Notes under the pieces: generated by a model | What the model was told of the DNA's origin: nothing | Database searches by the model: none | What the model saw: the letters and a program-made list of their open reading frames with translations, nothing else | Assembly: GCA_031256445.1 (NCBI GenBank) | Contig: JAIRQN010000045.1 | Span: 1-40,345, forward strand | DNA length: 40,345 bases | From: Treponema sp. | GTDB lineage: Bacteria > Spirochaetota > Spirochaetia > Treponematales > Breznakiellaceae | Direction: 5' to 3' | Program-made: the position numbers and the translations under genes | Part shown: piece after piece, positions 17,893-40,226 of the stretch | How the letters are laid out: the number at the start of each line of letters is the position of its first letter | Position numbering within the stretch: the first letter of the stretch is position 1

Positions 17893-18827
17893 ACCAGAAC
17901 CTGATTGTCTCCTATGCGCCGCACATCCGCGACAAAGCCTCTGTAAACCGCATTATGCTGGATGTAATAATCGCGCTGTGCCCTTCCTTTATTGTGGCGA
18001 TATGGATTTTCGGCCCAAAAGCGGCGCTTGTCACGGGCGTATGCGTCGTATCCTGCGTTTTCTTTGAATGGGCTTTTGAAAAACTGACCAAAAGAAAAAA
18101 TACAATTTCCGATTTTTCCGCCGCGCTTACAGGAATTCTTCTGGCTTATAATCTGCCTGTGACAATTCCCCTGTGGCAGGCTGTTGTCGGCAGTTTTACC
18201 GCCATTGTTCTTGTAAAGCAGCTCTTCGGCGGACTGGGAAAGAATTTCGCCAACCCCGCCGTTACGGGGCGCATCGTAATGTTCCTTGCGTTTCCCATAA
18301 CAATGACGACATGGGTAGCGCCTTTTGATACTGTCACAGGCGCGACACCCCTTGTGGAACTTCTGCGTATGTTCAGAAATGAAATCTACGCGATGCCCGG
18401 AACATGGGATTTGTTTTTGGGAGTGCACGGAGGCTGTATCGGGGAAACAAGCGAACTTGCGCTTTTGATTGGCTTTGCGTACCTTTTAATCCGCCGCGTT
18501 ATTGCGCCGATTGTGCCGTTCGCTTTTATAGGAACAGTTTTTGTTTTAACTTTTTTGGCAGGCGGCGCTGATTTCGCCGTTTACCATATTTTAACAGGCG
18601 GACTTTTTCTTGGCGCGGTTTTCTGCGCGACAGATTATGTAACATCCCCCATTACAAACAGGGGGCGGCTGATATTCGGCGTTGGCTGCGGAATCATTAC
18701 GGTAGTAATCAGGCTATACGGAAGTTACCCGGAAGGCGTGTCATTCGCGATTCTTTTAATGAATATGCTTGTTCCGTATATTAACAAAATTTCTTTTAAA
18801 AAAGCGCTTGGGGGCAAATATAAATGA
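17889..18827 (+). CDS. rnfD: Rnf complex subunit D, set 1
   Basis: Integral membrane subunit of Rnf (312 residues, about 9-10 transmembrane segments) that carries covalent FMN and is homologous to NqrB. The flavinylation motif TGAT is at residues 150-153, so Thr153 is the expected FMN attachment site (attached by ApbE; no apbE gene is in the window). Family blocks include QLFGGLGKNFANPA (111-124), HGGCIGETSELA and ATDYVTSPIT. Both ends overlap neighbours by four bases (ATGA), so rnfC2, rnfD1 and rnfG1 are translationally coupled. Confidence 0.95.
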   Translation: MNQNLIVSYAPHIRDKASVNRIMLDVIIALCPSFIVAIWIFGPKAALVTGVCVVSCVFFEWAFEKLTKRKNTISDFSAALTGILLAYNLPVTIPLWQAVVGSFTAIVLVKQLFGGLGKNFANPAVTGRIVMFLAFPITMTTWVAPFDTVTGATPLVELLRMFRNEIYAMPGTWDLFLGVHGGCIGETSELALLIGFAYLLIRRVIAPIVPFAFIGTVFVLTFLAGGADFAVYHILTGGLFLGAVFCATDYVTSPITNRGRLIFGVGCGIITVVIRLYGSYPEGVSFAILLMNMLVPYINKISFKKALGGKYK

Positions 18828-19372
18828 GCGTAAAAAAAGATTTTATTCTGCCTGTAACCGTTCTCTCGCTTATCTGCCTTGTCATTTCTGGCGCTCTTGC
18901 CGTTGTCAACAATCTGACAAAGCCTGTTATTGAAAACGCCGCTTCTCAGCGGGCCGCCGCCGCCAGACAGGATATTATCCCTGCCGCTGAAGGTTTTGAG
19001 TTAATTGAAGCGGAAGGGCTGCCAAAAAGAATTACGGAAGTATACAGAACGACAAACAATGTCGGCTATATATTCATGATAACGACTCACGGATACGCGC
19101 CTGAAGATATTAAAATGATCTGCGGAATTGATCCGGAAGGAAAGGTTATAAAAACCGCGACACTTTCGCAGAATGAAACGCAGGGTCTTGGCACGCCGAT
19201 ATTTGAACAGCCTCACGCGGGACAGTACTGGGGCAGGGACAGAAGCGGCATCGAAGGCGTCGCCGCGATTTCCGGCGCGACAATTACATCCAATGCGTAC
19301 AAGAACGGCATAAGGGACGCTTTCGCGGCTTTTGAAATTGTAAAAACTCTTCGCGCCGGAGGGGGAAAATAA
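18824..19372 (+). CDS. rnfG: Rnf complex subunit G, set 1
   Basis: RnfG (182 residues) has one N-terminal transmembrane helix (about 8-28) and a domain outside the cytoplasm carrying covalent FMN, homologous to NqrC. The motif SGATIT begins at residue 150, with Thr153 in the SGAT core. Other family landmarks are VNNLTKPVIE after the helix and SQNETQGLGTPI (115-126). It overlaps rnfD1 by four bases, and its TAA overlaps the rnfE1 ATG by one base. Confidence 0.94.
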   Translation: MSVKKDFILPVTVLSLICLVISGALAVVNNLTKPVIENAASQRAAAARQDIIPAAEGFELIEAEGLPKRITEVYRTTNNVGYIFMITTHGYAPEDIKMICGIDPEGKVIKTATLSQNETQGLGTPIFEQPHAGQYWGRDRSGIEGVAAISGATITSNAYKNGIRDAFAAFEIVKTLRAGGGK

Positions 19373-20046
19373 TGAGCAGATTATCAATTTTACTGAAAGG
19401 CTTAATCAGGGAAAATCCGGTTCTGGTTTCCGTGCTTGGAATATGCCCCATGCTCGCCGTGTCAACGCAGGTGTCAAGCGCGCTTGGAATGGGAGCAGCA
19501 ACCACATTTGTTTTAATCGGATCAAATATTTTAATTTCGCTGTTCAGAAATATAATTCCCGACAAGGTGCGCATTCCGTGTTATATCGTTTTTATAGCGG
19601 GGTTTGTGACAGTTGTAAAAATGATAATCGAGGCGTACGCGTATCCGCTTTACATGGCACTTGGAATTTTTCTGCCGCTTATCACCGTTAACTGCATAAT
19701 TTTCGCGCGCGCGGAAATCTTCGCCAAAAAAAATTCAGTTCTCGATTCCGCGCTGGACGGAGCGGGCATGGGCGCGGGGTTCACTCTCGCGCTTATCGCT
19801 ATGGCTTCTGTGCGCGAAATAATTGGCAGCGGAAAATGGTTCGGAATTGAACTGCCGCTGTTGATCGATTTTAATGTTCCAATTCTGACGCTTGCTCCCG
19901 GCGGATTCGCGGCATTTGGAATCCTGATCGCGGTTGTAAACAAGGTTTCAAAGGGAAAAGCGATAAAGAAAAAAGAATTCGGCTGCGCTGGATGTCTTTC
20001 CGCCGAAGCATGCAGTAAAATATCACAGAAAGGAGGCGCCGCGTAA
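19372..20046 (+). CDS. rnfE: Rnf complex subunit E, set 1, with Cys-rich tail
   Basis: RnfE (224 residues, six transmembrane segments) pairs with RnfA around a membrane [2Fe-2S] centre. The ligand motifs are intact: ICP with Cys25 and VNC with Cys108. Compared with the second copy (201 residues) it has a C-terminal extension that is basic and then Cys-containing, FGCAGCLSAEAC, with Cys205, 208 and 214 in a CxxCx5C pattern. The tail could bind an extra metal or be structural; nothing in the sequence decides this. Start and stop overlap neighbours by one base each (TAATG). Confidence 0.94.
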   Translation: MSRLSILLKGLIRENPVLVSVLGICPMLAVSTQVSSALGMGAATTFVLIGSNILISLFRNIIPDKVRIPCYIVFIAGFVTVVKMIIEAYAYPLYMALGIFLPLITVNCIIFARAEIFAKKNSVLDSALDGAGMGAGFTLALIAMASVREIIGSGKWFGIELPLLIDFNVPILTLAPGGFAAFGILIAVVNKVSKGKAIKKKEFGCAGCLSAEACSKISQKGGAA

Positions 20047-20642
20047 TGGACTTTAAAGCGCTTGCTGTCATTTTAATGGGCACTGTTCTTGTGAATAATT
20101 ATGTGCTGTGCCAGTTCCTTGGAATATGCCCGTTTTTGGGCGTAACAAAAGCGCTCAAGAACGCAATCGGAATGGGGCTTGCCGTCACTTTTGTGATGGT
20201 TCTGGCGACGGCTGTAACATGGCCTGTGCAGGTTTTTATTCTTGATAGAAACGGCATGGGTTATATGCAGATAATAGTTTTTATTCTGCTAATCGGCGCG
20301 CTTGTTCAGTTTGTGGAAATTGTATTAAAAAAATATATACCTTTTCTTTACGAAGCGCTGGGAGTTTATCTGCCGCTTATTACGGTAAACTGCGGCCTTT
20401 TGGGCGTAACAATAGTAAATATCACCAAAGAATACACTCTAGTTGAATCTCTTGTAAACGCGCTTGGAGCGGGACTGGGTTTTCTGCTGGCGATGGTTAT
20501 TTTTTCCGGCATCCGCGAGTATACGGAAAACGCCGACCCGCCTGAATCATTCAAAGGTTTGCCGCTGACGCTTTTATCTGTGGCAATTCTTTCGCTTTCA
20601 TTCTTTGGATTATCGGGAGTAATAGAAAATCTGTTCGGGTAA
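20046..20642 (+). CDS. rnfA: Rnf complex subunit A, set 1
   Basis: RnfA (198 residues, six transmembrane segments) is the inverted-topology partner of RnfE and homologous to NqrE. The 2Fe-2S ligand motifs are GICPFLGV with Cys28 and VNCGLLGV with Cys116. NNYVLCQFLGICPF at the N-terminus is the family signature. AGGAGG lies upstream inside the end of rnfE1. An 18-base gap separates it from rnfB1, one of only two real gaps in the operon. Confidence 0.95.
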   Translation: MDFKALAVILMGTVLVNNYVLCQFLGICPFLGVTKALKNAIGMGLAVTFVMVLATAVTWPVQVFILDRNGMGYMQIIVFILLIGALVQFVEIVLKKYIPFLYEALGVYLPLITVNCGLLGVTIVNITKEYTLVESLVNALGAGLGFLLAMVIFSGIREYTENADPPESFKGLPLTLLSVAILSLSFFGLSGVIENLFG

Positions 20643-20660
20643 AAGAAGGTAAAATAAAAT

Positions 20661-21479
20661 ATGGATATGATTTATACGACAGTATTTTCGGTTACCGCAA
20701 TGGGCATTATCTGCGCGACTGTTCTCTGCGTAGCGTCAAAACTTATGTATGTGAAAACCGATGAACGCGTAGCTAAACTTATAGAAGCCCTTCCTGGCGT
20801 TAATTGCGGAGCGTGCGGTTATCCGGGATGTTCAGGTTACGCCGCGGCGCTTCTTTCCGGCGGAACATCGCAGATTAATTTATGCACGCCTGGCGGCGCG
20901 GAAGTAATGGCGAAATTAAGCGCGATTCTCGGCGTAGAAGCGGGAAGCATGGAAAAGAAAACAGCGGTTGTTAAATGTTTGGGCGATTGCGCCTCACAAA
21001 AGAAAAAAATGGATTATATGGGAATACAGTCCTGCGCCGGTGCGAAGCAGCTTTATGGCGGAGAAGGCGCGTGCGCGTTTGGATGCCTGGGTTACGGCGA
21101 CTGTCAAAAAGCATGCCCGTCCGGCGCAATCTGTACAGAGGATGATCTTGCGCGCGTTATCGCGGGTCTTTGCACCGGATGCGGGCTTTGCGTAAAATCA
21201 TGCCCCAATAATTTAATCGCGGTAGAAAACGCTTCGCTTCCCGGGAGCGCCGCGCCCGTATTTGTGTTATGCAAAAATATTGAAAAGGGCGCTGTAACCA
21301 GAAAAAAATGCGCGAAAGGATGTATAGCCTGCGGCAAATGCGCCAGAGAGTGTTCCGCGCAGGCGATAACGATGGCGGATAATCTTGCCGTTATTAACTA
21401 TGGGAAATGTACAGGCTGCGGACACTGCGCGCAGGTGTGTGTGTCAAAGTGCATTCAGTCAACGTACAGAAGCGCGTAA
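20661..21479 (+). CDS. rnfB: Rnf complex subunit B, set 1
   Basis: RnfB (272 residues) has one N-terminal transmembrane helix and a large cytoplasmic polyferredoxin part that accepts electrons from or donates them to ferredoxin. The first cluster motif is NCGACGYPGC with a later Cys (Cys49, 52, 57, 75). Further 4Fe-4S motifs follow: CAFGCLGYGDCQKACP, CTGCGLCVKSCP, CAKGCIACGKCARECS and CTGCGHCAQVCVSKC. The multi-cluster C-terminus is of the clostridial and acetogen style rather than the shorter proteobacterial form. GAAGG precedes the ATG. Confidence 0.95.
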   Translation: MDMIYTTVFSVTAMGIICATVLCVASKLMYVKTDERVAKLIEALPGVNCGACGYPGCSGYAAALLSGGTSQINLCTPGGAEVMAKLSAILGVEAGSMEKKTAVVKCLGDCASQKKKMDYMGIQSCAGAKQLYGGEGACAFGCLGYGDCQKACPSGAICTEDDLARVIAGLCTGCGLCVKSCPNNLIAVENASLPGSAAPVFVLCKNIEKGAVTRKKCAKGCIACGKCARECSAQAITMADNLAVINYGKCTGCGHCAQVCVSKCIQSTYRSA

Positions 21480-21497
21480 TAAAAAAGGTGTTAAAAG

Positions 21498-22481
21498 GTG
21501 AAAATTGTAATTAACCAGATAATGACAGTTTCTTCTCCGCCTCACATCTACGGCAATGATTCAATCGAAACGCGGATGCGTGATGTGCTAATCGCGCTGT
21601 CGCCTGCCCTGTTCATGTCCGTCTATAATTATGGCAAGCAGGCTCTGTACACGACGGCGATTGCGGTCATCGCCGCTTTAATGGCTGAATACCTGTTCCA
21701 GCGGGTAATGAACAAAAAAGTTACTATTAACGATTACAGCGCGGCGATTACCGGGGTTTTGCTCGGTTTTAACCTTCCCCCCGATGTTCCGTTCTGGGTG
21801 ACAATCGCCGGAAGTTTCTTCGCGATAATTGTTGTAAAGCAGCTCTTTGGCGGGCTTGGCTCCAATTTTATAAATCCCGCTCTTGCCGCCAGGGCGTTTT
21901 TGCTTGCGTCATTTCCGGTGCACATGACAACCTGGACATTCGCTCCGGCCGGTAAAGTCGCGGACGCCGTTTCAGGCGCGACATACCTCGCGATGGTAAA
22001 ACAAAACCCGTCTTTTACTCCCGAATTATCCGATTATATAGCTCTTTTATTCGGGAAAGTCGGCGGATGTGTGGGCGAAACAAGCGCGGCTGCCCTTATC
22101 ATCGGCGGAGCGTATTTGCTTGCAAGAAGGGTTATAAACTGGCGCATCCCTGTTTTTTACATAGGCAGCTTTATTGTTTTTGGTTTTATTTTCGGGAGGA
22201 CGGGGTTCTTCTCGGGGCATATCCTGTTCGAGGTTTTAAACGGCGGCCTGTTAATGGGAGCCTTCTTTATGGCAACCGATTACGCCACAAGCCCAATTAC
22301 ATCCAACGGCAAGATTGTAATGGGGATAGGATGCGGTCTGTTAACCGTATTTATCAGGTACTTCGGCGATTACCCCGAAGGCGTAAGTTACGCAATCATT
22401 ATAATGAATCTTTTTGTACCGCTCATTGATAAATATGTAAGGCCGCGCGTTTTCGGCCGGCGAAAGAGGGTAAAAGCATGA
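21498..22481 (+). CDS. rnfD: Rnf complex subunit D, set 2
   Basis: Second RnfD, 327 residues and clearly divergent from set 1. The flavinylation motif SGAT is at residues 159-162 (Thr162 for covalent FMN). Shared family blocks are QLFGGLGSNFINPALAARAF, GGCVGETSAAALI and ATDYATSPIT. The start is GTG at 21498, chosen because AAGGTG lies about seven bases upstream. It follows rnfB1 after 18 bases, which marks the junction between the two DGEAB sets. Its end overlaps rnfG2 by four bases (ATGA). Confidence 0.94.
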   Translation: MKIVINQIMTVSSPPHIYGNDSIETRMRDVLIALSPALFMSVYNYGKQALYTTAIAVIAALMAEYLFQRVMNKKVTINDYSAAITGVLLGFNLPPDVPFWVTIAGSFFAIIVVKQLFGGLGSNFINPALAARAFLLASFPVHMTTWTFAPAGKVADAVSGATYLAMVKQNPSFTPELSDYIALLFGKVGGCVGETSAAALIIGGAYLLARRVINWRIPVFYIGSFIVFGFIFGRTGFFSGHILFEVLNGGLLMGAFFMATDYATSPITSNGKIVMGIGCGLLTVFIRYFGDYPEGVSYAIIIMNLFVPLIDKYVRPRVFGRRKRVKA

Positions 22482-23041
22482 ATTATATTCTCCGTCCCGC
22501 CGCCGCGCTTTTAATAACCGCCGTTATCGTTGTCGCCGCCCTGAGCGTAGTATACAATCTTACTCTTGAGCCGATTGAAAAACAAAAACAAAAAACGCAG
22601 GAAGCGGCAATCAGGGATGTTTTGCCAGGCACTACAGATTTTCGTGAGATTCAAATTGAAAATACCGGAGACATAACCGCGGTGTTTGAATGCACAAGCG
22701 GCGGGACATTAACAGGTTATGTGGTGCGGCTTTCACCGGAAGGGTACAGCGGCAATATCGATCTTATTACCGGTATCTCCGCGTCCAGCGAAAAAATTTC
22801 CGGTATGCGCATAATGCGGCACAGCGAGACGCCGGGTCTTGGCGCGCTTGCGGTCAAGGAAAATTTTTACAGGCAGTATGACAACAGGGCTCTTGCGCCG
22901 CTTTCTGTAACAAGGACTTCTCCCGGAGTAAATGACATTCAGGCGATAACAAGCGCGACCATTACAACAAGAGCGGTAACAAAAGCCGTTAACGAAGCTG
23001 TAGAGTGGTATATATCATATAAAGGGAGCGGTGTTAAATGA
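22478..23041 (+). CDS. rnfG: Rnf complex subunit G, set 2
   Basis: Second RnfG, 187 residues, with one N-terminal transmembrane helix (about 8-28) and a covalent-FMN domain. The flavinylation core reads TSAT (158-161) rather than SGAT, within DIQAITSATITTRAV. The aspartate and the Ala-Thr pair that the ApbE recognition rule requires are kept, so I expect it to be flavinylated. RHSETPGLG (114-122) matches the ETPGLG family landmark better than the set 1 copy does. It overlaps both rnfD2 and rnfE2 by four bases. Confidence 0.93.
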   Translation: MNYILRPAAALLITAVIVVAALSVVYNLTLEPIEKQKQKTQEAAIRDVLPGTTDFREIQIENTGDITAVFECTSGGTLTGYVVRLSPEGYSGNIDLITGISASSEKISGMRIMRHSETPGLGALAVKENFYRQYDNRALAPLSVTRTSPGVNDIQAITSATITTRAVTKAVNEAVEWYISYKGSGVK

Positions 23042-23643
23042 AATATACTGAACTTATCGGAAACGGGCTGATCCGGAAGAATCCTGTTTTTGTGCAGGTT
23101 TTGGCGCTCTGTCCCCTGCTTGCCGTTACAACTTCCGCCGTTAACGCGATTATCATGGGGTTGGCCACAACGGCGGTAATGATCTGCGCAAGCAGCGCGA
23201 TTTCCATTGTTAGAAAGCTCCTTCCAAACGAAGTGCGGATAGCGGCGGCTGTAATTATTGTGGCAGGCTTTGTAACAGTAGTAGAATTTCTTTTGGAAGC
23301 GTACGCGCCGCCTGAAATAAACGAATCGCTGGGCATTTACATACCGCTTATAGTCGTTAACTGCATTTTATTCGCGCGCCTTGAATCATTCGCGTCAAAA
23401 AACAATGTGTTTGCCTCTTCTGTAGACGCGCTCAGTATGGGCCTTGGTTTTACGCTTGGGCTTTTTGTAGTAGCCGTAATAAGGGAGTTTCTGGGCAGCG
23501 GCTCGATCTTCGGATACGAGCTGCTGCATGACAACGCTTCTCATGTGCTTATTATGGTAATGCCTCCGGGAGCGTTCTTCACTCTTGGGATCATCATTAT
23601 GATAAGAAAGTATATGCAGATGAGAACCGGAGGCACGCGGTGA
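23038..23643 (+). CDS. rnfE: Rnf complex subunit E, set 2
   Basis: Second RnfE, 201 residues and six transmembrane segments, without the Cys-rich tail of the set 1 protein. The 2Fe-2S ligand motifs are LCPLLAV with Cys25 and VNCILFAR with Cys109. N-terminal KNPVFVQVLALCP and central EAYAPPEINESLGIYIPLI are typical. ATGA overlaps with rnfG2 and a GTGA overlap with rnfA2 indicate tight translational coupling. Confidence 0.94.
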   Translation: MKYTELIGNGLIRKNPVFVQVLALCPLLAVTTSAVNAIIMGLATTAVMICASSAISIVRKLLPNEVRIAAAVIIVAGFVTVVEFLLEAYAPPEINESLGIYIPLIVVNCILFARLESFASKNNVFASSVDALSMGLGFTLGLFVVAVIREFLGSGSIFGYELLHDNASHVLIMVMPPGAFFTLGIIIMIRKYMQMRTGGTR

Positions 23644-24215
23644 ACACATTTTTAATAATAGTCGGCGCTGTTTTTATAAACAATTATGTGCTGGTTCAGT
23701 TTCTTGGGATGTGCCCGTTCTTCGGCGTTTCCAAAAAAACAGAAACCGCCCTTGGCATGGGATTGTCCGTCATGTTTGTCATGACGCTCGCGTCAGCCAT
23801 GACATTCCTTTTTTATAAATTTATTTTAATGCCGTTTAATATAACGTACCTGCGGACTGTGGTTTTTATCTTAATCATTGCCTCTATTGTGCAGTTTGTC
23901 GAAGTGTTTATGAAAAAAATGTTTACAGCCCTTTACGCCATGCTTGGAGTTTATCTTCCCCTGATTACGGTTAACTGCGTTATTTTCGGCGTAACGCTGA
24001 TTAATATAAAAAATGAATATACGTTTATCGGCGCGCTGGTTAACAGTATCGGCGCAGGCGCTGGTTTTACGCTCGCTATTCTGCTGCTGGCCGCAATCCG
24101 TGAAAAGTACGAAGCCAGTCCTGACGTGCCGGAACTGTTTAAGGGATTCCCGCTTGCGCTGTTTTCGGCAGGGCTGATGAGCATCGCCTTTATGGGTTTT
24201 ATGGGGTTGATATGA
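23640..24215 (+). CDS. rnfA: Rnf complex subunit A, set 2
   Basis: Second RnfA, 191 residues and six transmembrane segments. NNYVLVQFLGMCPFFGV carries Cys25, and VNCVIFGV carries Cys113, for the 2Fe-2S centre shared with RnfE2. The start is GTG at 23640, overlapping the rnfE2 TGA as GTGA, with CGGAGG upstream. It overlaps rnfB2 by four bases; in set 1 the corresponding junction is an 18-base gap. Confidence 0.94.
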   Translation: MNTFLIIVGAVFINNYVLVQFLGMCPFFGVSKKTETALGMGLSVMFVMTLASAMTFLFYKFILMPFNITYLRTVVFILIIASIVQFVEVFMKKMFTALYAMLGVYLPLITVNCVIFGVTLINIKNEYTFIGALVNSIGAGAGFTLAILLLAAIREKYEASPDVPELFKGFPLALFSAGLMSIAFMGFMGLI

Positions 24216-25015
24216 TAGAAATTATATTAATCCCTGTCATATGCGTCGGCTCTCTCGCTCTTCTGTTTGGCGTAATTCTCGGCCTGTCCGCAAAAAAATT
24301 CGCCGTACAGTCAGATCCAAAAGTAGACCGCATAATAAGCGTTTTACCGGGCGCCAACTGCGGCGGCTGCGGGTATCCGGGCTGCACTGTTTTCGCCGAG
24401 CGAGTAGCGGAAGGAAAAGCAAGCTACCGCGGCTGTCCTCCCGGAGGCCAGAGCGCCGCGGCGGCTATTGCGAAGCAGATGGGAGTAGACGCGGCTGTGA
24501 CAAGCCGGAAAGCGGCGTATGTCAAATGCGGCGGAACCAACGAGAATATTAAAAGAAATTATATTTATGACGGCCCCAAAAGCTGCGTCTCCGCTTCCCA
24601 GCTTGCCACAGGCGGGAATAAAACGTGCAGATACAGCTGTATCGGCCTTGAAAGCTGCAAAAACGCCTGCCCGTTCAACGCGATAAAAATGGTCGACAGC
24701 ATCGCAGTTGTCATTACTGAAAAATGCAGCGCCTGCGGAAAATGCGTAAAGGTCTGCCCGAAAAATTTAATTGAAATTGTGCCTGACAGAAATACTGTCC
24801 GCATTTTGTGCAACTCAAGAGACAAGGGCAGGCTGGTAAGGGAAAATTGCCGCGTAGGCTGCATAGGCTGCCTTATCTGCCAGAAAGCGTGCAAAGCAGG
24901 CGCGATTACTGTCGCGGATAATATCGCCCATATTAATTATGATAAATGCACTTTGTGCATGGAGTGCGTTCAAAAATGCCCGTCAAAAGTAATTAAGGTA
25001 GCCGAATTTAAATAA
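24212..25015 (+). CDS. rnfB: Rnf complex subunit B, set 2
   Basis: Second RnfB, 267 residues: one transmembrane helix, then NCGGCGYPGC with a later Cys (Cys50, 53, 58, 75) and further 4Fe-4S motifs CRYSCIGLESCKNACP, CSACGKCVKVCP, CRVGCIGCLICQKACK and CTLCMECVQKCP. It is the last gene of the 12-gene unit. Its TAA is two bases from the stop of the convergent chemoreceptor gene, so no terminator fits between them; transcription must end within or beyond mcp, or by another mechanism. Confidence 0.95.
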   Translation: MIEIILIPVICVGSLALLFGVILGLSAKKFAVQSDPKVDRIISVLPGANCGGCGYPGCTVFAERVAEGKASYRGCPPGGQSAAAAIAKQMGVDAAVTSRKAAYVKCGGTNENIKRNYIYDGPKSCVSASQLATGGNKTCRYSCIGLESCKNACPFNAIKMVDSIAVVITEKCSACGKCVKVCPKNLIEIVPDRNTVRILCNSRDKGRLVRENCRVGCIGCLICQKACKAGAITVADNIAHINYDKCTLCMECVQKCPSKVIKVAEFK

Positions 25016-33207: not shown

Positions 33208-35334
33208 CTATATGTAAGCGATAATCCCCTCAGTTTCCGCTGTAAAACCATCCGGAAACAGAGGGCCTTCCTTGCCGCCGAAACCGGCCGCTATCATTGC
33301 CGCGGCAAGCAAAAGGCCGCCGTTGCCAGGCAGGTACAAGGGCAGGGCGCTGTCCCCTGTCTGCCGGTTATGACCGTTTTCCAGCCATGTGTTTTTTGGA
33401 CTGTCCATTAAAAGTAAATCCATTGCGTCTTTATGGCGTCCAAGGCGGCAGGCGGTCATTGCCATCATCGGAAAATCCCAGCCGTAAAAAGTGCTTTTGT
33501 CCCAAACCGAAAGCGTTTTATCCAAAGTCGCCGACATAATTTCCCTGTCGGTTTTTTCGCTGTCCAGAACGCCGTACATTGCCAGCATGGAAGGATGATC
33601 AGTATAAAAAGGCAGTTTGCTGAATGTATCAGGGCAGTTCTCATGCGCCGTGTACAGGCCGCCGCTTGCAGGCGGAAGGCTTATGTTTTCGGCGATTTCA
33701 CCGTAACGGCACGGCTCTCCAAGGCGCAGCAGCCATTCATCCGCCCTGCGCAGGCCCCAGCGGAAATATTCGAGTTCAAAAGCGGCGTTTAAAACTTTTT
33801 CCGGATCGTGGCGTTCCTGTGCGGGAATATACGGAGGGCCTAGCACATAACGGCTGCCGTCCCAATGCAGAAAACTTTTCATGAATTCCGCCGTTTCAAC
33901 GACAATCTCCCTGTAATCGCGTAAAATGCGGCCAAGTTTCCCGCTTGAAAATTCTTTTGATTGATCGCCGCCTGTTTTCTGTTCTTCGCATTTACACGCC
34001 CGCCATAACAATTCCGCGAACATGACCGGGTGAGGCTGCTGCCAGATTAACAGCACCGCAATTGACGAAGGCGTGTTTGCGCCTGACGGATCGCACATTT
34101 TGGGCCAGCGCGCTCCGCTGTACCCCTGCGAAGACGCGGTTTCTTTCGCCGCAGGCAGAATTTTTTTATAGTACTCAAGAGAATTCCGCAGTTCGTCTGT
34201 TCTTCCCCAAAGAGCGAAATGCGCGTGATGCCAAAAGTGCATTTCAAGATGAAACTTTCCGTACCAGCTGTTGCAGCCAAGGCCGGTTTCAGCCGGCGGG
34301 AGCGCCCCCCTGCCTTGAATCGCGGTTAAATACAAAGAGAGAATTATTCTGCGTTCCAGTTCAAACGCGCGTTTATCCGTTGAGCCTGAAAAATCCATAA
34401 AACCGCCTGAGAGCCAATAATTTTCCCAGAATGCTGCGCATTTTTCTTTTGCGTCATCAAATAAATCTGTCTGATTATCCGTTTCTTTGTAATCACCTAA
34501 TCCAATCCGGGATAACGCCGGAACATACACCGGCTTAAACCTGACGCAGAATTCAATTGACTGTTCATCAGGAATAAAATTAATTATATGCGGCTTTTCC
34601 CGTGATGCTGCATGAAAACCTGTTCCATCAACAGTAACTTCGTAAATAGTTTCATCCAGTTCTCTTTTTATGAAAATATTTTGCCGCTTTCCTGTCTCAT
34701 GGCGCGAAACAAATGTTTTATGCGAATCATGCGCTGTAAAATCCGCCGCGCATTTTTTATGACTGCCGTATGGAAAATTTACCGTTATGCGCAGATTCCC
34801 GTTTTTCAGCAAAGAGGATGCGGCGCGGACATATAAAGCGTCTTCCTGCGGGTGGACAAACGTCTGTGTTTTTACAGTTTCACCGTTTATTGAAAATTCC
34901 GAGTATAAAATTCCTTTCCATAAAGAGAGCAGCTGACTGACCGGTTTACATTCGTTCATTGATAAATTGCCGCCTGAAAATTCAAAACCAATTTTTCCAA
35001 GATGGAATTTATGCGCGTTTACCCTGATTTTCTTGAAAAGTTCTTCCTGTCCCGCGTCATCTGCGGCGTAATATACCGTCCTTCCGTAAGTATCAAACGG
35101 CGTTAAACGCAATTCCTGCTGGCCGCCCGCTGCCGGATACGAATGCCATCCCCACTCGGACATTGTGCAGAGCGGGAACGCGTCCTGCCCTTCGCAGTAT
35201 TCATCATAAAAAGTCTGAAGTCCCGTAAAGTCCGCCGTAAAGCAGAATTTTCCGTTTCCAACTGATAAAGGCGCGTTTTTATTTAATTTTGCGTAATGGG
35301 GATTATGCCTTTCCACTGTTTCACGCCGGTTCAA
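33208..35334 (-). CDS. Six-hairpin glycoside hydrolase-like protein (GH65/GH95-related)
   Basis: A 708-residue cytoplasmic protein (no signal peptide). The second half is rich in Trp, His and aromatic blocks typical of (alpha/alpha)6 glycosidases: SWYGKFHLEMHFWHHAHFAL near 355-375, ARWPKMCDPSGANTPSS and FYGWDFPMMAMTACRLG; the first part looks like a beta-sandwich. The family is only approximately placed, and GH65, GH95 or an unclassified relative are all possible. The start is TTG at 35334 with GGAGG seven bases upstream. That ribosome site spans the stop of the GH4 gene, three bases away, so the two are one operon and probably act on the same oligosaccharide. Confidence 0.65.
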   Translation of the reverse strand: MNRRETVERHNPHYAKLNKNAPLSVGNGKFCFTADFTGLQTFYDEYCEGQDAFPLCTMSEWGWHSYPAAGGQQELRLTPFDTYGRTVYYAADDAGQEELFKKIRVNAHKFHLGKIGFEFSGGNLSMNECKPVSQLLSLWKGILYSEFSINGETVKTQTFVHPQEDALYVRAASSLLKNGNLRITVNFPYGSHKKCAADFTAHDSHKTFVSRHETGKRQNIFIKRELDETIYEVTVDGTGFHAASREKPHIINFIPDEQSIEFCVRFKPVYVPALSRIGLGDYKETDNQTDLFDDAKEKCAAFWENYWLSGGFMDFSGSTDKRAFELERRIILSLYLTAIQGRGALPPAETGLGCNSWYGKFHLEMHFWHHAHFALWGRTDELRNSLEYYKKILPAAKETASSQGYSGARWPKMCDPSGANTPSSIAVLLIWQQPHPVMFAELLWRACKCEEQKTGGDQSKEFSSGKLGRILRDYREIVVETAEFMKSFLHWDGSRYVLGPPYIPAQERHDPEKVLNAAFELEYFRWGLRRADEWLLRLGEPCRYGEIAENISLPPASGGLYTAHENCPDTFSKLPFYTDHPSMLAMYGVLDSEKTDREIMSATLDKTLSVWDKSTFYGWDFPMMAMTACRLGRHKDAMDLLLMDSPKNTWLENGHNRQTGDSALPLYLPGNGGLLLAAAMIAAGFGGKEGPLFPDGFTAETEGIIAYI

Positions 35335-35337
35335 TTG

Positions 35338-36750
35338 TTACCCTCCGTTTTCATTCTCTGTCATGAACTTAAGGCTTTCCTTGCTCATTTCATCAAAGAG
35401 CGAACGGGCGTCCTTTAATTGCAATTTCTGCACAGCAAGATCATGTGAAAAGATACGGAAAGCCTTTTCTATATCGTTCTCAAATACCGCTTCGATTATT
35501 CCTTCCTGGGCAAGAACATGGTGCATAACCAAAGCTCTTATATCGGAGGTGAGGCCGTTAGTTGAAACGGCGGAAATTTTACCGCGTGTAAAGACAGCGT
35601 TGGTCTCAACTACAGGTCCGGATGGAAGATCAGGCATCTGCCCCTTGTTGGGCAGGTTTACATTCGTGGTAATGTCTCCCGCTCCCGATAACGCCTTCAC
35701 TATTTTCAGGCCTTCTTCCCCTGATTCAACGGGCGTCATTGACAAAGCGCCGCCGCAGTAAGCTATTGCTTTTTCTTTTAACATTTCACAGTCTTTTACT
35801 CGCCATGAAACCGGCGTAAGAGCAAAACCCCAGCTTTCAACCGCTTCGGGAGACGAAAGATACCATGAATGCGGGCAAAATTCCGCAAGATGCCTGTCTC
35901 CGGCGGCGGCGATTAGTCCGTAGCGCAGGAAAAGATCCATTTTTACGCGGTCTGTTGAGCCAAAAAGTTTTAACCTTGTCTTTTCATCTTCATTAAGGTT
36001 GTCATTGGCATTTTGCGCGTTTTTAAAACCTGTTTGCGCGTATTTAACTGCAAATTTTTTATAATATGGAAATATGTCAATATCCTTCCACGCCGCCCTG
36101 TCTATCCATGTAAAGTGATTAATGCCCATAACATTTACTTTTATTTCTTCCCGTTTAATGGATCCGGCAGGAGCAAGGCCGGCTTCTTCCAGAACGGAAG
36201 CAAGAAGCTTCTGGGTGTGAAACACTTCATGGCAGCAGCCGAACGCTTTTATCGCGGGAAATTCTTTGTAAAGCGCGCGCGTACAGACGCTCATGGGGTT
36301 TGTATAGTTGATAACCCACGCTTCAGGAGCGTATTTTTGCACCTCACGCGCGATGTGCCTGAACTGCGGAATTGCGCGCATGGAGCGGATAATTCCGCCC
36401 GCTCCGGCGCTGTCCCCGACTGGCTGGTAAATGCCGTATTTTTCCGGAACGTGAACGTCAACTGCCATCTCTTCAAAGCCGCCTGGAAGAATCGAAATAA
36501 TAACAAAATCGGCTCCGTTTAGCGCGTTCTGCAGAGAGGGGTTCGCGTGAAACCGCCAAATGCCCTTGTTGCGCTCTTCCATGAGTCTATTGCCGGTTAT
36601 TTCGTTTGTTACTGCGTCATCATGTTTTATGTCATACAGTTCAATTGTTCCGCCAATTTCTTTTTCAAAGGCAAGATCCTGCATTAAAACCCATGCCCAG
36701 TTGCGCGAACCGCCGCCGATGTAACATATCTTCAGTTTATTTATTTTCAT
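35338..36750 (-). CDS. GH4 glycosidase, alpha-galacturonidase (LplD) type
   Basis: GH4 enzymes use NAD+ and Mn2+ in a redox-assisted hydrolysis. This 470-residue protein has the N-terminal Rossmann loop IGGGSRNWAW (11-20), NYTNPMSVCTRALYK (148-162), metal ligands in GCCHEV (171-176) and INHFTW (210-215, His212). The stretches GIYQPVGDSAGAGGIIRSMRA and GCCHEVFHTQKLLAS closely resemble my memory of Bacillus LplD, an alpha-galacturonidase; this is recognition, not an alignment. I start at ATG 36750 (MKINKLKICYIGGG); an upstream TTG at 36786 lies inside the operator palindrome. It is divergent from uxaE, which supports a galacturonide substrate. Confidence 0.82.
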   Translation of the reverse strand: MKINKLKICYIGGGSRNWAWVLMQDLAFEKEIGGTIELYDIKHDDAVTNEITGNRLMEERNKGIWRFHANPSLQNALNGADFVIISILPGGFEEMAVDVHVPEKYGIYQPVGDSAGAGGIIRSMRAIPQFRHIAREVQKYAPEAWVINYTNPMSVCTRALYKEFPAIKAFGCCHEVFHTQKLLASVLEEAGLAPAGSIKREEIKVNVMGINHFTWIDRAAWKDIDIFPYYKKFAVKYAQTGFKNAQNANDNLNEDEKTRLKLFGSTDRVKMDLFLRYGLIAAAGDRHLAEFCPHSWYLSSPEAVESWGFALTPVSWRVKDCEMLKEKAIAYCGGALSMTPVESGEEGLKIVKALSGAGDITTNVNLPNKGQMPDLPSGPVVETNAVFTRGKISAVSTNGLTSDIRALVMHHVLAQEGIIEAVFENDIEKAFRIFSHDLAVQKLQLKDARSLFDEMSKESLKFMTENENGG

Positions 36751-36763
36751 GTATATCAGCTTA

Positions 36764-36791
36764 ATTCCTATTGCCAAAATTGGCAAGGAAT
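36764..36791. promoter_or_regulatory. Palindromic operator between the GH4 gene and uxaE
   Basis: TTGCCAA (36771-36777), centre AA and TTGGCAA (36780-36786), with outer arms ATTCC (36764-36768) and GGAAT (36787-36791). TTGCCA on each strand could serve as a -35 box for the two divergent genes (17-base spacing to TAATTA at 36794 on the plus strand and to TAAGCT on the minus strand). A bound dimeric regulator would therefore cover both promoters. No regulator gene lies nearby. Confidence 0.6.
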
Positions 36792-36817
36792 GGTAATTAT
36801 TAAAAGCATGGGGAATA

Positions 36818-38242
36818 ATGGGGGAATTAAAAGTTTATATAAATTCTGTTAATAATATTTTTTCTGCGGCTGTCTATATGGCTGACGATAACGGAAAAAC
36901 GGTTATTATAACAGAAGAACCGGGGAATAACGGACAATCCGCATTGGGGTTTGCCGCCGGTGATGTTGGCGGCGGTAAATTCCGTGCGGAACTGACGCAT
37001 GAAAACGCCTGTGCCCTTCGCAGGCTTTTTCCCTGGACAGCGCCTGTCCGCGGACTTTCCAGACCGGCGAGTTTCGGTCTTGGGGACAGGCTTGGAATAG
37101 CCGCTCCTGGTCATATAGATCTTTTTAAAAACAATGATGTGTTTCCCGTTTTCGCGCAGCAGTCCATCCGCGAGCTTAACCTGACCAACAGAACATACGA
37201 AGATGTTCTTGACGCGGCAACCTTCGCCGTGTTCCGCGAAGGATACAAAAAGGGCTTCGGCGCGGACGGAGATCATTTAAAAACCGCAAAAGATGTTGAA
37301 TACGCTCTTTCCCTTGGGTTCACAATGATAACACTTGACTGTTCCGATTATATAAAAAATAATGTTAACGCGGAAAACGCGCCGCCGCTTTCGCAGTATT
37401 ATAAAGACAAGTACCTTAACAGGGAATTTTTTATAGAAGATTTTGTCCTTGTTTTTTCCGAAGATGAATTAAGACAATGCGCCGCCATTTACGCGGGGGC
37501 GGTCTCCTTTGCCGCTGATATATATAAAAATTTTTTTGCCTCCGGCAAATATGACGCTGATTTTGAAATTTCGATAGATGAAACATTTTCTGTTACTGCG
37601 CCATTACAGCATTTTTTTACGGCGCGCGAACTGCTGGACGCGGGTGTAAAATTCGCTGCAATTGCGCCGCGTTTCTGCGGAGAATTTCAGAAGGGAATTG
37701 ATTATATTGGCGACACAGCTCAGTTTGAAAAAGAGATAAGAATACACGCCGCTGTCGCGCGCCATTTGGGGCATAAACTGAGCATTCATTCAGGCTCTGA
37801 CAAATTCAGCGTATTTGCGGCCATCGGGCGCGAAACGCGCGGTTGTTTTCATATAAAAACGGCAGGGACAAACTGGCTGGAAGCGATGCGCATAACAGCG
37901 CGCAAAGATCCTCCGCTTTACCGCGCGATTCACTGTTTCGCCCTTTCGGTGTTTGAAGATGCCAAAAAATATTATCATGTAACAACTGACCTCTCCCAAA
38001 TCCCGGATATTTCCGCAATGAAAGATGAGGATCTGCCTGAAATGTTCAACAATAACGGCGCGCGCCAGCTGATTCATATTACCTACGGATTTATATTGCG
38101 CCAAAAAAATGACGATGGGTCTTTTATGTTCAGGGACCGTCTTTATAATCTCTGGCGTGAAAATGAAGATGAATACCGCGCCGCTCTTGTGAAACATATC
38201 GGAAAGCATTTAGAATTATTGTTTGAAGGAGTTAAATCATGA
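36818..38242 (+). CDS. uxaE: Tagaturonate/fructuronate epimerase
   Basis: UxaE interconverts D-tagaturonate and D-fructuronate by C3 epimerisation, linking galacturonate catabolism to the glucuronate branch and 2-keto-3-deoxygluconate. The 474-residue protein matches the family in RRLFPWTAPVRGLSRPASFG and LGDRLGIAAPGHID (about 68-102), FAQQSIREL, GFGADGDHLKT, ISIDETFSVT and LGHKLSIHSGSDKFS. A metal-dependent TIM-barrel mechanism is expected. The only ribosome-site candidate is GGGGA four bases before the ATG. It overlaps the DJ-1/PfpI gene by four bases. The other genes of the pathway are not in the window. Confidence 0.82.
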   Translation: MGELKVYINSVNNIFSAAVYMADDNGKTVIITEEPGNNGQSALGFAAGDVGGGKFRAELTHENACALRRLFPWTAPVRGLSRPASFGLGDRLGIAAPGHIDLFKNNDVFPVFAQQSIRELNLTNRTYEDVLDAATFAVFREGYKKGFGADGDHLKTAKDVEYALSLGFTMITLDCSDYIKNNVNAENAPPLSQYYKDKYLNREFFIEDFVLVFSEDELRQCAAIYAGAVSFAADIYKNFFASGKYDADFEISIDETFSVTAPLQHFFTARELLDAGVKFAAIAPRFCGEFQKGIDYIGDTAQFEKEIRIHAAVARHLGHKLSIHSGSDKFSVFAAIGRETRGCFHIKTAGTNWLEAMRITARKDPPLYRAIHCFALSVFEDAKKYYHVTTDLSQIPDISAMKDEDLPEMFNNNGARQLIHITYGFILRQKNDDGSFMFRDRLYNLWRENEDEYRAALVKHIGKHLELLFEGVKS

Positions 38243-38799
38243 CAAAGAAAGCTCTTGTTCTGCTGGCGGACGGTTTTGAGGAAGTCGAAGCTGTAACGCC
38301 AATCGACTATTTGCGCCGCGCCGGGGTAGAGGTAACTACTGCTTCAGTTTCTGCGGATCTGATCGTTACGGGCAGATGGGGCGGCATCAGAATAACCGCC
38401 GACACTGTGTTACGTGAAATCGCAGGGAGCGCTGGCGAATGGGACGCTGTGATTCTCCCAGGCGGAATCCCCGGCGCGGAAAATCTGGCCGCTTCCAAAG
38501 AAACAGTCGCCCTTCTTAAAGAAATGGCGACCGCGGGAAAATTGATCTGCGCAATCTGCGCTTCGCCGGCTGTGGTTCTTTTCCCGCTTGGTCTTCTTGA
38601 CGGAAAAAAATTTACCTGCTATCCGGGAATGGAAGAAAAACTGACAGATGCCCTTTGGCTGCCGGATCGCGTAGTGGCGGACGGCAATATTATTACAAGC
38701 CAAGGCGCGGGAACAGCGGGAGAATTCGCGATAGCGATTATCGAAAAACTGGTTGACGAAGCCGCCGTCTGTAAAATAGCCGAAGCGATACTGCTGTAA
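38239..38799 (+). CDS. DJ-1/PfpI family protein
   Basis: A 186-residue DJ-1/ThiJ superfamily member. DGFEEVEAVTPID (11-23) carries the conserved glutamate, PGGIPGAENL (74-83) follows, and AICASP (105-110) places the nucleophile-elbow cysteine at Cys107. Members act as deglycases, glyoxalases or chaperones, and the precise role here is open; repair of carbonyl damage from reactive keto-sugars would fit its coupling to uxaE. It overlaps uxaE by four bases (ATGA) with AAGGAG upstream. Confidence 0.87.
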   Translation: MTKKALVLLADGFEEVEAVTPIDYLRRAGVEVTTASVSADLIVTGRWGGIRITADTVLREIAGSAGEWDAVILPGGIPGAENLAASKETVALLKEMATAGKLICAICASPAVVLFPLGLLDGKKFTCYPGMEEKLTDALWLPDRVVADGNIITSQGAGTAGEFAIAIIEKLVDEAAVCKIAEAILL

Positions 38800-38949: not shown

Positions 38950-39990
38950 TTATTTTGCAAGGATCTTCGCGAATGATTTTAATTTCCCGCTTTTAATAAA
39001 TGTTCCAGGAACTTCAAGTATTTCGCGTGCTACTTTATTGCCGATAGCGGCGCTTTCCGAAATTGACTTGCCGCGAATCCATGCGGCGGTAAAAGCCGCG
39101 CAGAAGGCGTCGCCCGCTCCTACAGTGTTACGCGGAGTTATGGTGAATGTTTCTTCGCGGTATACATTGCCGCCTGCGACTACCACCGCGCCCCTGCCTC
39201 CCAGTTTGATAACCATTATGGGATATAATTCTCCGTCTGTGATTATTTGCAGAGTTGGGCAGACATCGCTGAGGATTATCGCTTCCTTTTCTTTTTCGGA
39301 AAGTACGGTATCTTCATCAAGGCTCTTCCTGATTGTATTGTAGAAAGTCAGAGTTTCATCCGCGTTCATAAAAATGAGCAGGGGATAATTGCGGCTGTAT
39401 GTCAGGATTTCTTCCGCTTTGCTGCGTACCTGCATTACAGACGCCGCGTCCAGAGCGACCGGAATTCCACGGCGGTTTGAAAGTTTTAAAATGTGCTGCA
39501 CCAAACTGCGGCGGTCAAGAATATAACCGTCCAGAACCACAACTTCCGCGGCGCTTATCAACTCCTCGCTGATATGGGATTCGTTCAGATCCAGAGCCGC
39601 GCCCGGGCTTGCCGCGAATCTTGTCTCCCCGTTTACGTTACACGCGAAACACAGCCCTGTCTTTCCGCCGGTTTTGGAGAGCATTGTTAACACGCCTGCT
39701 TCCGTCATTTCTTTTTCAAACAGACCGGCATGCTCGTCCTCTCCGATAGTGCCGTAAAACGCGGCGCTCATTCCCAGCATCGCCGCTATTTTCGCCACAT
39801 TTGCCGCGCCGCCTCCGGAGCTTTTTACCGCCTTTGAAAAATCAATCGAAGGCTCATTCAGGATAGATTCCGCCGCGTCCCGGCTTATATGCTGAACCGG
39901 ATCTGTAATGCCGTACTTTTCCGCGAGAGAAAGATCAATATCAATAAACACATCGACAATCGGATTGCCGATACAAAGCAGCTCAGTCAA
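38950..39990 (-). CDS. PfkB-family carbohydrate/nucleoside kinase
   Basis: A ribokinase-fold kinase of 346 residues. SGGGAANVAKIAAMLG near 58-73 is the substrate-side glycine motif, and TVGAGDAFCAAF near 298-309 holds the catalytic Asp of GAGD. The overall style is that of the adenosine-kinase/PfkB subgroup that phosphorylates nucleosides or sugars; substrate unresolved. I favour the TTG start at 39990 because GGAGG lies five bases upstream. An in-frame ATG at 40002 would put that ribosome site inside the coding region and has none of its own, adding only four residues. It follows the unidentified partial gene on the same strand. Confidence 0.83.
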   Translation of the reverse strand: MTELLCIGNPIVDVFIDIDLSLAEKYGITDPVQHISRDAAESILNEPSIDFSKAVKSSGGGAANVAKIAAMLGMSAAFYGTIGEDEHAGLFEKEMTEAGVLTMLSKTGGKTGLCFACNVNGETRFAASPGAALDLNESHISEELISAAEVVVLDGYILDRRSLVQHILKLSNRRGIPVALDAASVMQVRSKAEEILTYSRNYPLLIFMNADETLTFYNTIRKSLDEDTVLSEKEKEAIILSDVCPTLQIITDGELYPIMVIKLGGRGAVVVAGGNVYREETFTITPRNTVGAGDAFCAAFTAAWIRGKSISESAAIGNKVAREILEVPGTFIKSGKLKSFAKILAK

Positions 39991-40226
39991 TGAGACCTCC
40001 ATGAATATTTGTGGTTATATTTTCACATAAAAAAGAGGGGTTAGGGAATAGGGAGCAGAGTGAGACACGATAAGCCCGTAAAAGACAGCAGGCAGTTTCC
40101 CCAATCACGCTCATAACTCCAGCTTGCTCCTGCCTTTCCCGCTTCCGGTAGTAAGCGGCAGTGAACAGTTAATCCGCTGCCTGACCTGGGCGTTGCATTG
40201 CGCATAACATTCAAACCGGCGTTACA

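Follow-up and report, generated by a model that had tools for sequence, protein, structure and literature searches.

The questions raised by this locus are which glycosidic linkages its paired enzymes attack and how its two divergently oriented units are controlled. The window, i.e., the whole stretch of 40,345 nucleotides that was analyzed, originates from a Treponema sp. genome of 2.79 Mb, representing a spirochaete of probable termite-gut origin, and contains the four genes concerned between positions 33208 and 38799. The best explanation, which in our judgement stands an even chance of being correct, is a catabolic locus for oligosaccharides of the rhamnogalacturonan-I (RG-I) type, featuring alternate action of the enzymes SHG and GH4 and a local control element. 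Beyond the brief mention given to it in an earlier sequence-only reading of this DNA, the SHG enzyme is the unusual part of the locus. The following features were assigned:

33208 to 35334, minus strand: SHG, a glycosidase of 708 amino acids recognized by fold match, with no Pfam or NCBIfam family above cut-off
35338 to 36750, minus strand: GH4, putative LplD-type alpha-galacturonidase (matches to PF02056, PF11975 and structure 3fef; CHEV motif at residues 173-176)
36767 to 36792, plus strand: intergenic core CCTATTG-N8-GGCAAGGAATG, candidate operator over the divergent promoters (22 of 26 columns invariant in five congeners)
36771 to 36786, no strand: perfect palindrome TTGCCAA-AA-TTGGCAA, present only here among the five compared genomes
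36818 to 38242, plus strand: UxaE, tagaturonate epimerase (PF16257, 2.2e-181)
38239 to 38799, plus strand: DJ-1/PfpI family protein (PF01965, 8.5e-46), overlapping the uxaE stop by 4 nt

Family matches at these coordinates bore out the identities of GH4, UxaE and the DJ-1 protein as well as their divergent layout. GH4 matched PF02056 (1.2e-53, 181.9 bits, cut-off 23.2) and PF11975 (1.4e-33, 117.1 bits, cut-off 24.1), and its closest known structure is Bacillus subtilis LplD (3fef; 8.4e-127, near full length; enzyme named according to the PDB record), followed by the next GH4 structure at 4.7e-21. With LplD far nearer than any other GH4 enzyme of known structure, the resemblance to alpha-galacturonidase appears well founded, and an alpha-galacturonide is the probable substrate, by analogy to LplD. 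The CHEV motif, which we take to be typical of LplD and which is also contained in the 3fef alignment, is invariant in five genomes. The B. subtilis lplD gene presumably resides in a rhamnogalacturonan cluster; the GH4 gene of the window differs in being paired with SHG and divergent from UxaE. Its previously listed start, TTG at 36786, falls inside the palindrome; ATG at 36750 was adopted instead, because the LplD alignment opens at residue 13 of the listed open reading frame. This correction results in an intergenic region of 67 bp between GH4 and UxaE. On the other side, SHG starts with TTG 3 nt past the GH4 stop.

UxaE covers the complete PF16257 profile (1-475 of 475; 604 bits, cut-off 27.1), and the Thermotoga maritima enzyme was recovered as positive control in the genome search for UxaE. 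Together with the LplD-like GH4, this full-length UxaE supports the predicted role in galacturonide catabolism. The divergent orientation of UxaE relative to GH4-SHG, as in the window, recurs in 4 of the UxaE loci of 20 relatives. A plasmid search with UxaE yielded three distant records. Uronate isomerase UxaC is encoded elsewhere in the genome (contig C101), and UxuA (PF03786) and a PF01081 aldolase were not found in this 97.7% complete genome, the uronate pathway thus being incomplete by the models used. Membership of the DJ-1 protein in the pathway was not supported, as no match occurred at the UxaE loci of the 20 relatives, four of whose contigs end within approximately 310 nt after UxaE; the gene is probably an incidental neighbour outside any conserved unit.

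Regarding control of the locus, the 26-bp element overlaps the palindrome and is kept in five congeners including the window, where the core shows its 22 invariant columns as compared to 11/40 and 6/40 in the flanks. Allowing up to three mismatches, the core occurs once per genome in the five genomes, at this locus only; a looser core pattern with two mismatches gave 6 and 6 sites in the own genome versus 12 and 15 for the reversed control. Local control is therefore likely, and a scattered regulon is not. Shared control of both divergent units, as predicted previously, is probable in view of the conserved intergenic element, which likely acts as a local DNA switch between them. Lying across the promoters, it would control both units and serve this locus alone, and its cognate regulator, whose binding we infer, would be encoded at a non-adjacent position.

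A possibility against which we lean mildly is that the element represents two overlapping promoters (-35/-10) of the divergent genes and involves no dedicated regulator; this reading concerns the control element alone and does not conflict with what the best explanation says of the enzymes. It is consistent with the absence of a second core copy in the five genomes and with the spacing of the boxes: on the plus strand, TTG(N)3 of the core precedes an AT-rich -10 by 17-18 nt, and in the congeners TTGCC(T/A) is separated by 15 nt from TATAAT-like boxes that closely precede the GH4 ATG. However, GGCAAGGAATG, mostly spacer on the plus strand, is invariant in all five, which a promoter alone would not require.

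The designation of SHG as a six-hairpin glycosidase held as a fold, but no Pfam or NCBIfam family reached its cut-off for the window protein. The predicted architecture comprises a beta-sandwich and an (alpha/alpha)6 barrel of the GH65/GH95-like type. An AlphaFold2 (AF2) model computed on a 76-row alignment reached a pLDDT of 94.9, versus only 49.8 on a 5-row alignment; alignment A3 omits the homologues L154, which contains an X, L177, whose match is split in two, and the partial L130, L180 and L185. The model superimposes on the inverting alpha-1,2-glucosidase FjGH65A of family GH65 (7fe3) with a Z score of 37.5 over 584 residues at 3.0 A, and E507, present in 76/76 rows, aligns in the model with the GH65 general acid Glu472. 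Nevertheless, identity in the structure alignment is 15%, and the Pfam GH65 score of the window protein remained below cut-off (13.3 versus 27 bits); among 14 SHG members, six matched GH65 at E 0.1 (best 5.1e-4). Residues 642-667, placed opposite the GH65 general base Glu616 (hydrolases) in a loop matched by secondary structure only, contain no D or E conserved above 93%. This apparent lack of a conserved acidic counterpart was counted against the SHG proposal.

Alpha-L-fucosidases of GH95 and GH139 (2eab, 7kmq, 9hyq) share the modelled fold with Z scores of 23-27, values lower than for GH65, at 12-14% identity; the GH139 enzyme 9hyq acts on pectin RG-II according to its PDB title. Pfam GH95 gave no match for the window protein and weak matches for 3 of the 14 members (best 1.7e-4). 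Because GH95 fucosidases have the same fold, the specificity of SHG is not derivable from it. The reaction proposed for SHG is that of the GH78 and GH106 alpha-L-rhamnosidases, but Pfam models of these families matched neither the window protein nor three congeners and were not among the four Pfam families matched by the 14 members. GH78 (2okx) reached a Z score of 21.7 over 337 residues; among the 50 structure matches listed, GH78 is represented by a single entry and GH106 by none, which is no argument against either family. A DnaJ-like Pfam match in one of the 14 members (2.7e-6) was taken as spurious. The family occurs in spirochaetes, Bacteroidota, Planctomycetota and others, at least five phyla by record titles, and annotated RefSeq plasmid records name it 'hypothetical protein' only. 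No paper on it was found in the literature searched, and an existing CAZy family number is possible; the portions consulted of PMC13067680, PMC5167688, PMC6339884, PMC3870299 and PMC8626586 do not describe it.

Gene neighbourhoods, in which genes without a Pfam or NCBIfam call were named by eye from ORF-caller translations, provide the indications for a substrate. GH4 is located directly upstream of SHG on the same strand in 21/29 spirochaete loci, two of the other eight beginning at a contig edge. The Treponema locus L123 encodes GH4, SHG, GH43, two ABC transporter permeases, a substrate-binding protein (SBP), RhaB, RhaA and RhaD in this order; RhaA and RhaD exceed their NCBIfam cut-offs, and RhaB is the best match but scores below (388 versus 528 bits). 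No other glycosidase was recognized in this 12.7-kb stretch, which starts about 150 bp before GH4. Likewise, L131 comprises GH4, SHG, a transporter, a GDSL-like protein (below cut-off), an FGGY kinase and RhaA, and RhaA lies in the available flanks of 5 of 80 SHG loci (two spirochaete, three Bacteroidota). Moreover, Barnesiella encodes a single protein consisting of GH28, GH88/105 and SHG, SHG of Asticcacaulis is surrounded by pectate lyase, GH28, GH88, oligogalacturonate lyase and KduI, and in locus L113 a GH88/105 gene precedes GH4. GH78 was found near one SHG homologue (L183) and GH106 near six (L138, L139, L152, L161, L162, L165).

Based on these neighbourhoods, which suggest the rhamnose specificity, SHG is proposed to be an exo-alpha-L-rhamnosidase. 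The NAD-dependent, LplD-type GH4 would remove alpha-galacturonate from the non-reducing end, SHG, translated right behind it, would remove the alpha-L-rhamnose thus exposed, and both would alternate along the imported RG-I fragment; UxaC would then isomerize galacturonate and UxaE pass the carbon on as fructuronate. Extended to the whole family, a tentative proposal falling just short of an even chance is that SHG constitutes an unrecognized family of GH65/GH95 fold, whose exo-alpha-L-rhamnosidases act on Rha-alpha-1,4-uronate together with GH4, GH28 or GH105 galacturonidases and dismantle the RG-I backbone residue by residue, in the cytoplasm of spirochaetes and externally in Bacteroidota. 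By eye, no signal peptide was seen in the window protein, and signal sequences were seen in Bacteroidota SHG. A multi-phylum family of 'hypothetical proteins' would thereby acquire a role in pectin breakdown that can be tested. Should SHG be the partner of GH4 that takes off rhamnose, two enzymes would be enough for intracellular exo-degradation of the RG-I backbone; this would account for the use of imported pectin fragments by these spirochaetes, at whose 29 loci neither GH78 nor GH106 gave a match (one query each).

A less likely reading keeps SHG in this pathway as an exo-glycosidase but assigns it another sugar, such as a terminal arabinose, L-galactose/L-fucose or uronate residue that caps the side chains of pectin or arabinogalactan, with GH4 acting on the part exposed. 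Apart from the fold shared with the fucosidases, this reading draws on GH43: in a further set of 12 spirochaete loci, 10 carry it next to SHG, and 18 of the 80 named loci contain a GH43 match; in L134 its closest structure is 5c0p, named endo-arabinase (5e-71). The 12 loci were hand-picked (9 of 14 other genomes plus three from the earlier genome set), and neither GH4 nor a rhamnose gene occurs in the stretch read, a further point against the rhamnosidase proposal. In L109, moreover, SHG is followed by a GH2 enzyme most similar to beta-glucuronidase 6ncy. Against it, the operons of L123 and L131 end in rhamnose genes and include no other recognized candidate rhamnosidase, and the GH28-GH88/105-SHG fusion points to the backbone.

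Co-occurrence was analyzed in 146 genomes including the own one, uncorrected for phylogeny. Disregarding kinship, UxaE of the full-length class (E below 1e-140, a cut of our own) was present in 12/20 SHG genomes versus 14/126 others, and within the family in 12/16 versus 10/71. RhaA was present in 14/20 versus 40/126, the link being weaker within the family (10/16 versus 27/71, p 0.10, kinship likewise ignored). Two SHG genomes without RhaA encode a RhaI-like isomerase below the cut-off of that family, one scoring 482 versus 531 bits and one matched as two pieces, and a weak RhaA match in genome G022 (2e-5) was left out of the count because it is RhaI-like. Neither RhaA nor RhaI was found in the 97.7% complete own genome, so that released rhamnose has no recognized route there. 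None of nine pectin/rhamnose markers was found in 40 of the 80 SHG loci, including 28/61 loci of at least 10 kb and, in a separate breakdown, 32/51 outside spirochaetes, where marker counts are lower bounds based on one or two query proteins each. The missing isomerases and these marker-free loci were both counted against the rhamnosidase proposal. Also counted against it, two of the four plasmid loci read, those of Paenarthrobacter and Streptomyces, are without pectin genes near SHG.

It is very improbable that the palindrome marks a scattered uronate regulon, as the sequence-only reading had expected: although the own genome holds 29 sites at up to two mismatches versus 15 for the reversed pattern, 12 of the 13 examined among 27 sites off this contig lie inside open reading frames and no copies were found near uronate genes in this sample, no site was listed on the UxaC contig, four congeners of the same divergent layout lack the palindrome, and the conserved core occurs once per genome; this candidate was rejected. 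The palindrome itself is present with zero mismatches, as reported, and has one exact copy in the own genome; the two one-mismatch sites lie inside a flippase-like frame and between EF-G-like and RNA-methylase-like genes (by eye). When the 67-bp intergenic region was dinucleotide-shuffled 5000 times, 470 of the shuffled sequences contained a perfect inverted repeat of this class (arms of at least 7, loop of at most 8), and the palindrome alone is therefore not significant. A tidy palindrome seen in a single genome can thus be due to chance, and it is the five-genome comparison that reveals the conserved element. The outer arms described for the palindrome are offset by 2 nt relative to each other. 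Of its predicted position on both -35 boxes, the minus-strand half failed, no promoter pair being found there in a scan of 36500-37100; on the plus strand, a promoter-like pair does begin in the palindrome (TTGCCA-18-AATTAT, 9/12).

The main interest of this locus lies in the pairing of a GH4 enzyme with a six-hairpin-type glycosidase (SHG), more than in the operator proposed by the sequence-only reading. The following features were considered:

33208-35334, minus strand: SHG, 708 aa
35338-36750, minus strand: GH4 enzyme
36767-36792, intergenic: 26-bp conserved core, overlapped in this genome by the palindrome TTGCCAA-AA-TTGGCAA (36771-36786)
36818-38242, plus strand: UxaE
38239-38799, plus strand: DJ-1 protein
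38950-40002: PfkB-family kinase, adjoining DJ-1

The genome (2.79 Mb, 107 contigs, 97.7% complete) contains this locus on contig C83. The enzyme identities proposed earlier were correct: Pfam confirmed GH4, UxaE and DJ-1, and the GH4 enzyme matched the B. subtilis alpha-galacturonidase LplD (PDB 3fef) at 8.4e-127 over nearly its full length, with all remaining GH4 structures matching at 4.7e-21 or weaker. Since LplD aligns only from residue 13 of the ORF as listed, the GH4 start was placed at the ATG at 36750, giving an intergenic region of 67 bp. The SHG start lies 3 nt past the GH4 stop and is preceded by GGAGGG, and this arrangement suggests translational coupling of SHG to GH4. DJ-1 overlaps uxaE by 4 nt; the UxaE loci of 20 relatives gave no DJ-1 match, although four of them run out within about 310 nt past UxaE. 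For the adjoining PfkB-family kinase, the best NCBIfam models were of the ribose-1-phosphate kinase and ribokinase types, all far under cut-off. Elsewhere in the window (15362-25015), two Rnf-like gene clusters in tandem were named by eye from translations.

SHG matched no Pfam or NCBIfam family above cut-off. Its AF2 model (76 rows; pLDDT 94.9, pTM 0.95) was most similar to the GH65 inverting alpha-1,2-glucosidase 7fe3 (Z 37.5, 584 residues, 3.0 A, 15% identity), followed by human PGGHG and kojibiose phosphorylase, with GH95 and GH139 fucosidases lower; the GH78 structure 2okx reached Z 21.7 over 337 residues. Furthermore, the SHG sequence profile matched GH65 chains at 5e-8. For the 7fe3 enzyme, PMC8626586 gives Glu472 as general acid and Glu616 as base. 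The glutamate of the 7fe3 DEW motif, taken to be Glu472 because of the neighbouring Trp, aligned with E507 of SHG, which is one of the acidic positions shared by all rows of the 76-row alignment (E60, E349, E364, E507, D620). The base Glu616 sits between helices 11 and 12 of 7fe3, whereas the SHG loop 642-667, its counterpart by secondary structure only, contains no conserved acid in that alignment. Among the papers listed by the literature searches, none dealt with SHG. It is regarded as a candidate new GH family, newness being judged against Pfam, NCBIfam and these listings.

A five-row alignment searched against named genomes found 87 SHG relatives, and 80 loci were kept, comprising 29 spirochaete loci and 51 others by record title, the latter including Bacteroidota, Planctomycetota, Oscillospiraceae and Kribbella. 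Nearest to the window's SHG among the named genomes were Treponema sp. MAGs, for which we infer a termite-gut source from isolate names and literature. Plasmid records originated from Asticcacaulis, Arthrobacter, Paenarthrobacter, Nonomuraea and Streptomyces, and matches were labelled 'hypothetical protein' wherever annotated. Of 146 related genomes, 20 carried SHG, as did 15 of 392 sampled across the phylum, own genome included in both. Treponema Co191P3bin12 (L107 and L109) encodes a second SHG copy in addition to its GH4-SHG-UxaE locus; in L107 no GH4 match lies alongside SHG. One record titled Vibrio cholerae 35D (L153, WNZI01000004.1) encodes SHG with sugar ABC transporter parts; the title may reflect mislabelling or contamination.

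In 21/29 spirochaete loci, SHG is immediately preceded by GH4 on its own strand; of the remaining eight, two start at a contig edge. Among the 51 non-spirochaete loci, GH4 was near SHG in one. Selected neighbourhoods were as follows:

L123, spirochaete: GH4-SHG-GH43-two permeases-SBP-RhaB-RhaA-RhaD
L131, spirochaete: GH4-SHG-transporter-GDSL-like-FGGY kinase-RhaA
L160: RhaT, aldolase II and Fe-ADH near SHG
L161: RhaT, RhaA and FGGY kinase near SHG
L170:6415-11169, Barnesiella sp. WM24: single 1584-aa protein, GH28+GH88/105+SHG

RhaA and RhaD of L123 exceeded NCBIfam cut-offs; RhaB remained below (388 vs 528 bits). Since GH4 and SHG, plus GH43 in L123, were the sole glycosidases recognised in L123 and L131, SHG would be the simplest source of the rhamnose these operons are predicted to consume, and it may act as a rhamnosidase on rhamnogalacturonan-I (RG-I). 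The Barnesiella protein is possibly a complete RG-I exo-degradation tool. Moreover, SHG was found among pectin genes on one Asticcacaulis plasmid and beside a pectate lyase on another; no pectin genes were seen near SHG in the Paenarthrobacter and Streptomyces plasmid loci. Marker counts over the 80 loci (tblastn, flanks of varying length) are lower bounds, because only one to three queries were used per marker: RhaA 5, GH28 10, GH88/105 9, GH106 6, GH78 1, GH43 18, UxaE 5 and GH4 22. Against a role as rhamnose source, 40/80 loci showed none of the nine markers. Likewise, at 12 further spirochaete loci the 12 kb inspected contained neither GH4 nor any rhamnose gene; GH43 adjoined SHG in 10 of them and transporter parts were present in seven. 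A large DUF4450-like protein, which may belong to the SHG pathway, recurs near SHG in L160:4582-7650 (below Pfam cut-off), L161:11086-14139 (by eye) and the Asticcacaulis plasmids L186 and L189 (annotated). For termite Breznakiellaceae, GH105, an aldouronate-like transporter and a non-conventional rhamnose route are described in PMC13067680; the term GH4 is absent from its main text.

Across the 146 genomes, in counts that ignore kinship, UxaE was present in 12/20 genomes with SHG vs 14/126 without, and RhaA in 14/20 vs 40/126. Within the family, again ignoring kinship, the association held for UxaE (12/16 vs 10/71) and was weak for RhaA (p 0.10).

The remaining uronate genes had been predicted to be scattered and connected by the operator. 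UxaC is indeed encoded elsewhere, on contig C101 (563 bits vs NCBIfam cut-off 387), but no operator connects the pieces. It is convergent with a PfkB-type kinase that fits KDG-kinase-like models best, though far under cut-off. A PF08125 dehydrogenase on C18 most resembled the arabinitol dehydrogenase and fructuronate reductase models, without reaching the cut-off of either. Searches of the 97.7% complete assembly gave no UxuA (PF03786), PF01081 aldolase, RhaA or RhaI.

The palindrome between GH4 and UxaE is exact, but 470 of 5000 dinucleotide shuffles of the intergenic region also yielded a perfect repeat with arms no shorter (loop up to 8). The suggested genome scan yielded 29 sites vs 15 for the reversed control (≤2 mismatches), but 12 of 13 inspected sites, from the 27 outside the window contig, lay inside ORFs. 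UxaE was present in 47/146 genomes, own included, and 20 other UxaE loci were fetched, one of which (L056) begins at the gene. SHG-GH4 divergent from UxaE was kept in four, all of the same genus, and none of these intergenics contained the palindrome: its left half reads TTGTAAA or TTGATAA, and three carry CCTATT-N5-AATAGG in its place. Common to all five genomes is the core CCTATTG-N8-GGCAAGGAATG, with 22/26 columns invariant vs 11/40 and 6/40 in the two flanks, alongside 63-74% identity of the congener proteins to those of the window. At ≤3 mismatches the core occurred exactly once per genome, at this locus, and its reversed control not at all; in the own genome, a looser pattern with 2 mismatches showed no excess over its control. 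The notion of an operator marking a findable regulon was thus mostly wrong in form. No regulator gene was seen beside the core, which we read from its conservation and single occurrence as a putative local control element and candidate for regulator binding.

UxaE-family matches fell into two classes, strong (E < 1e-140) and shorter, distant ones (about 1e-37 to 1e-58), the latter mostly from family f4. In the UxaE loci L049, L051 and L053, from congeners or relatives and with no GH4 beside UxaE, the preceding gene ends GH105-like (by eye). Finally, in several of the loci L111, L112, L114, L115, L116, L108 and L110, a TATCAT/TATAAT-like box begins only some 12-15 nt ahead of the GH4 start, a position suggesting a very short or leaderless GH4 5' end.
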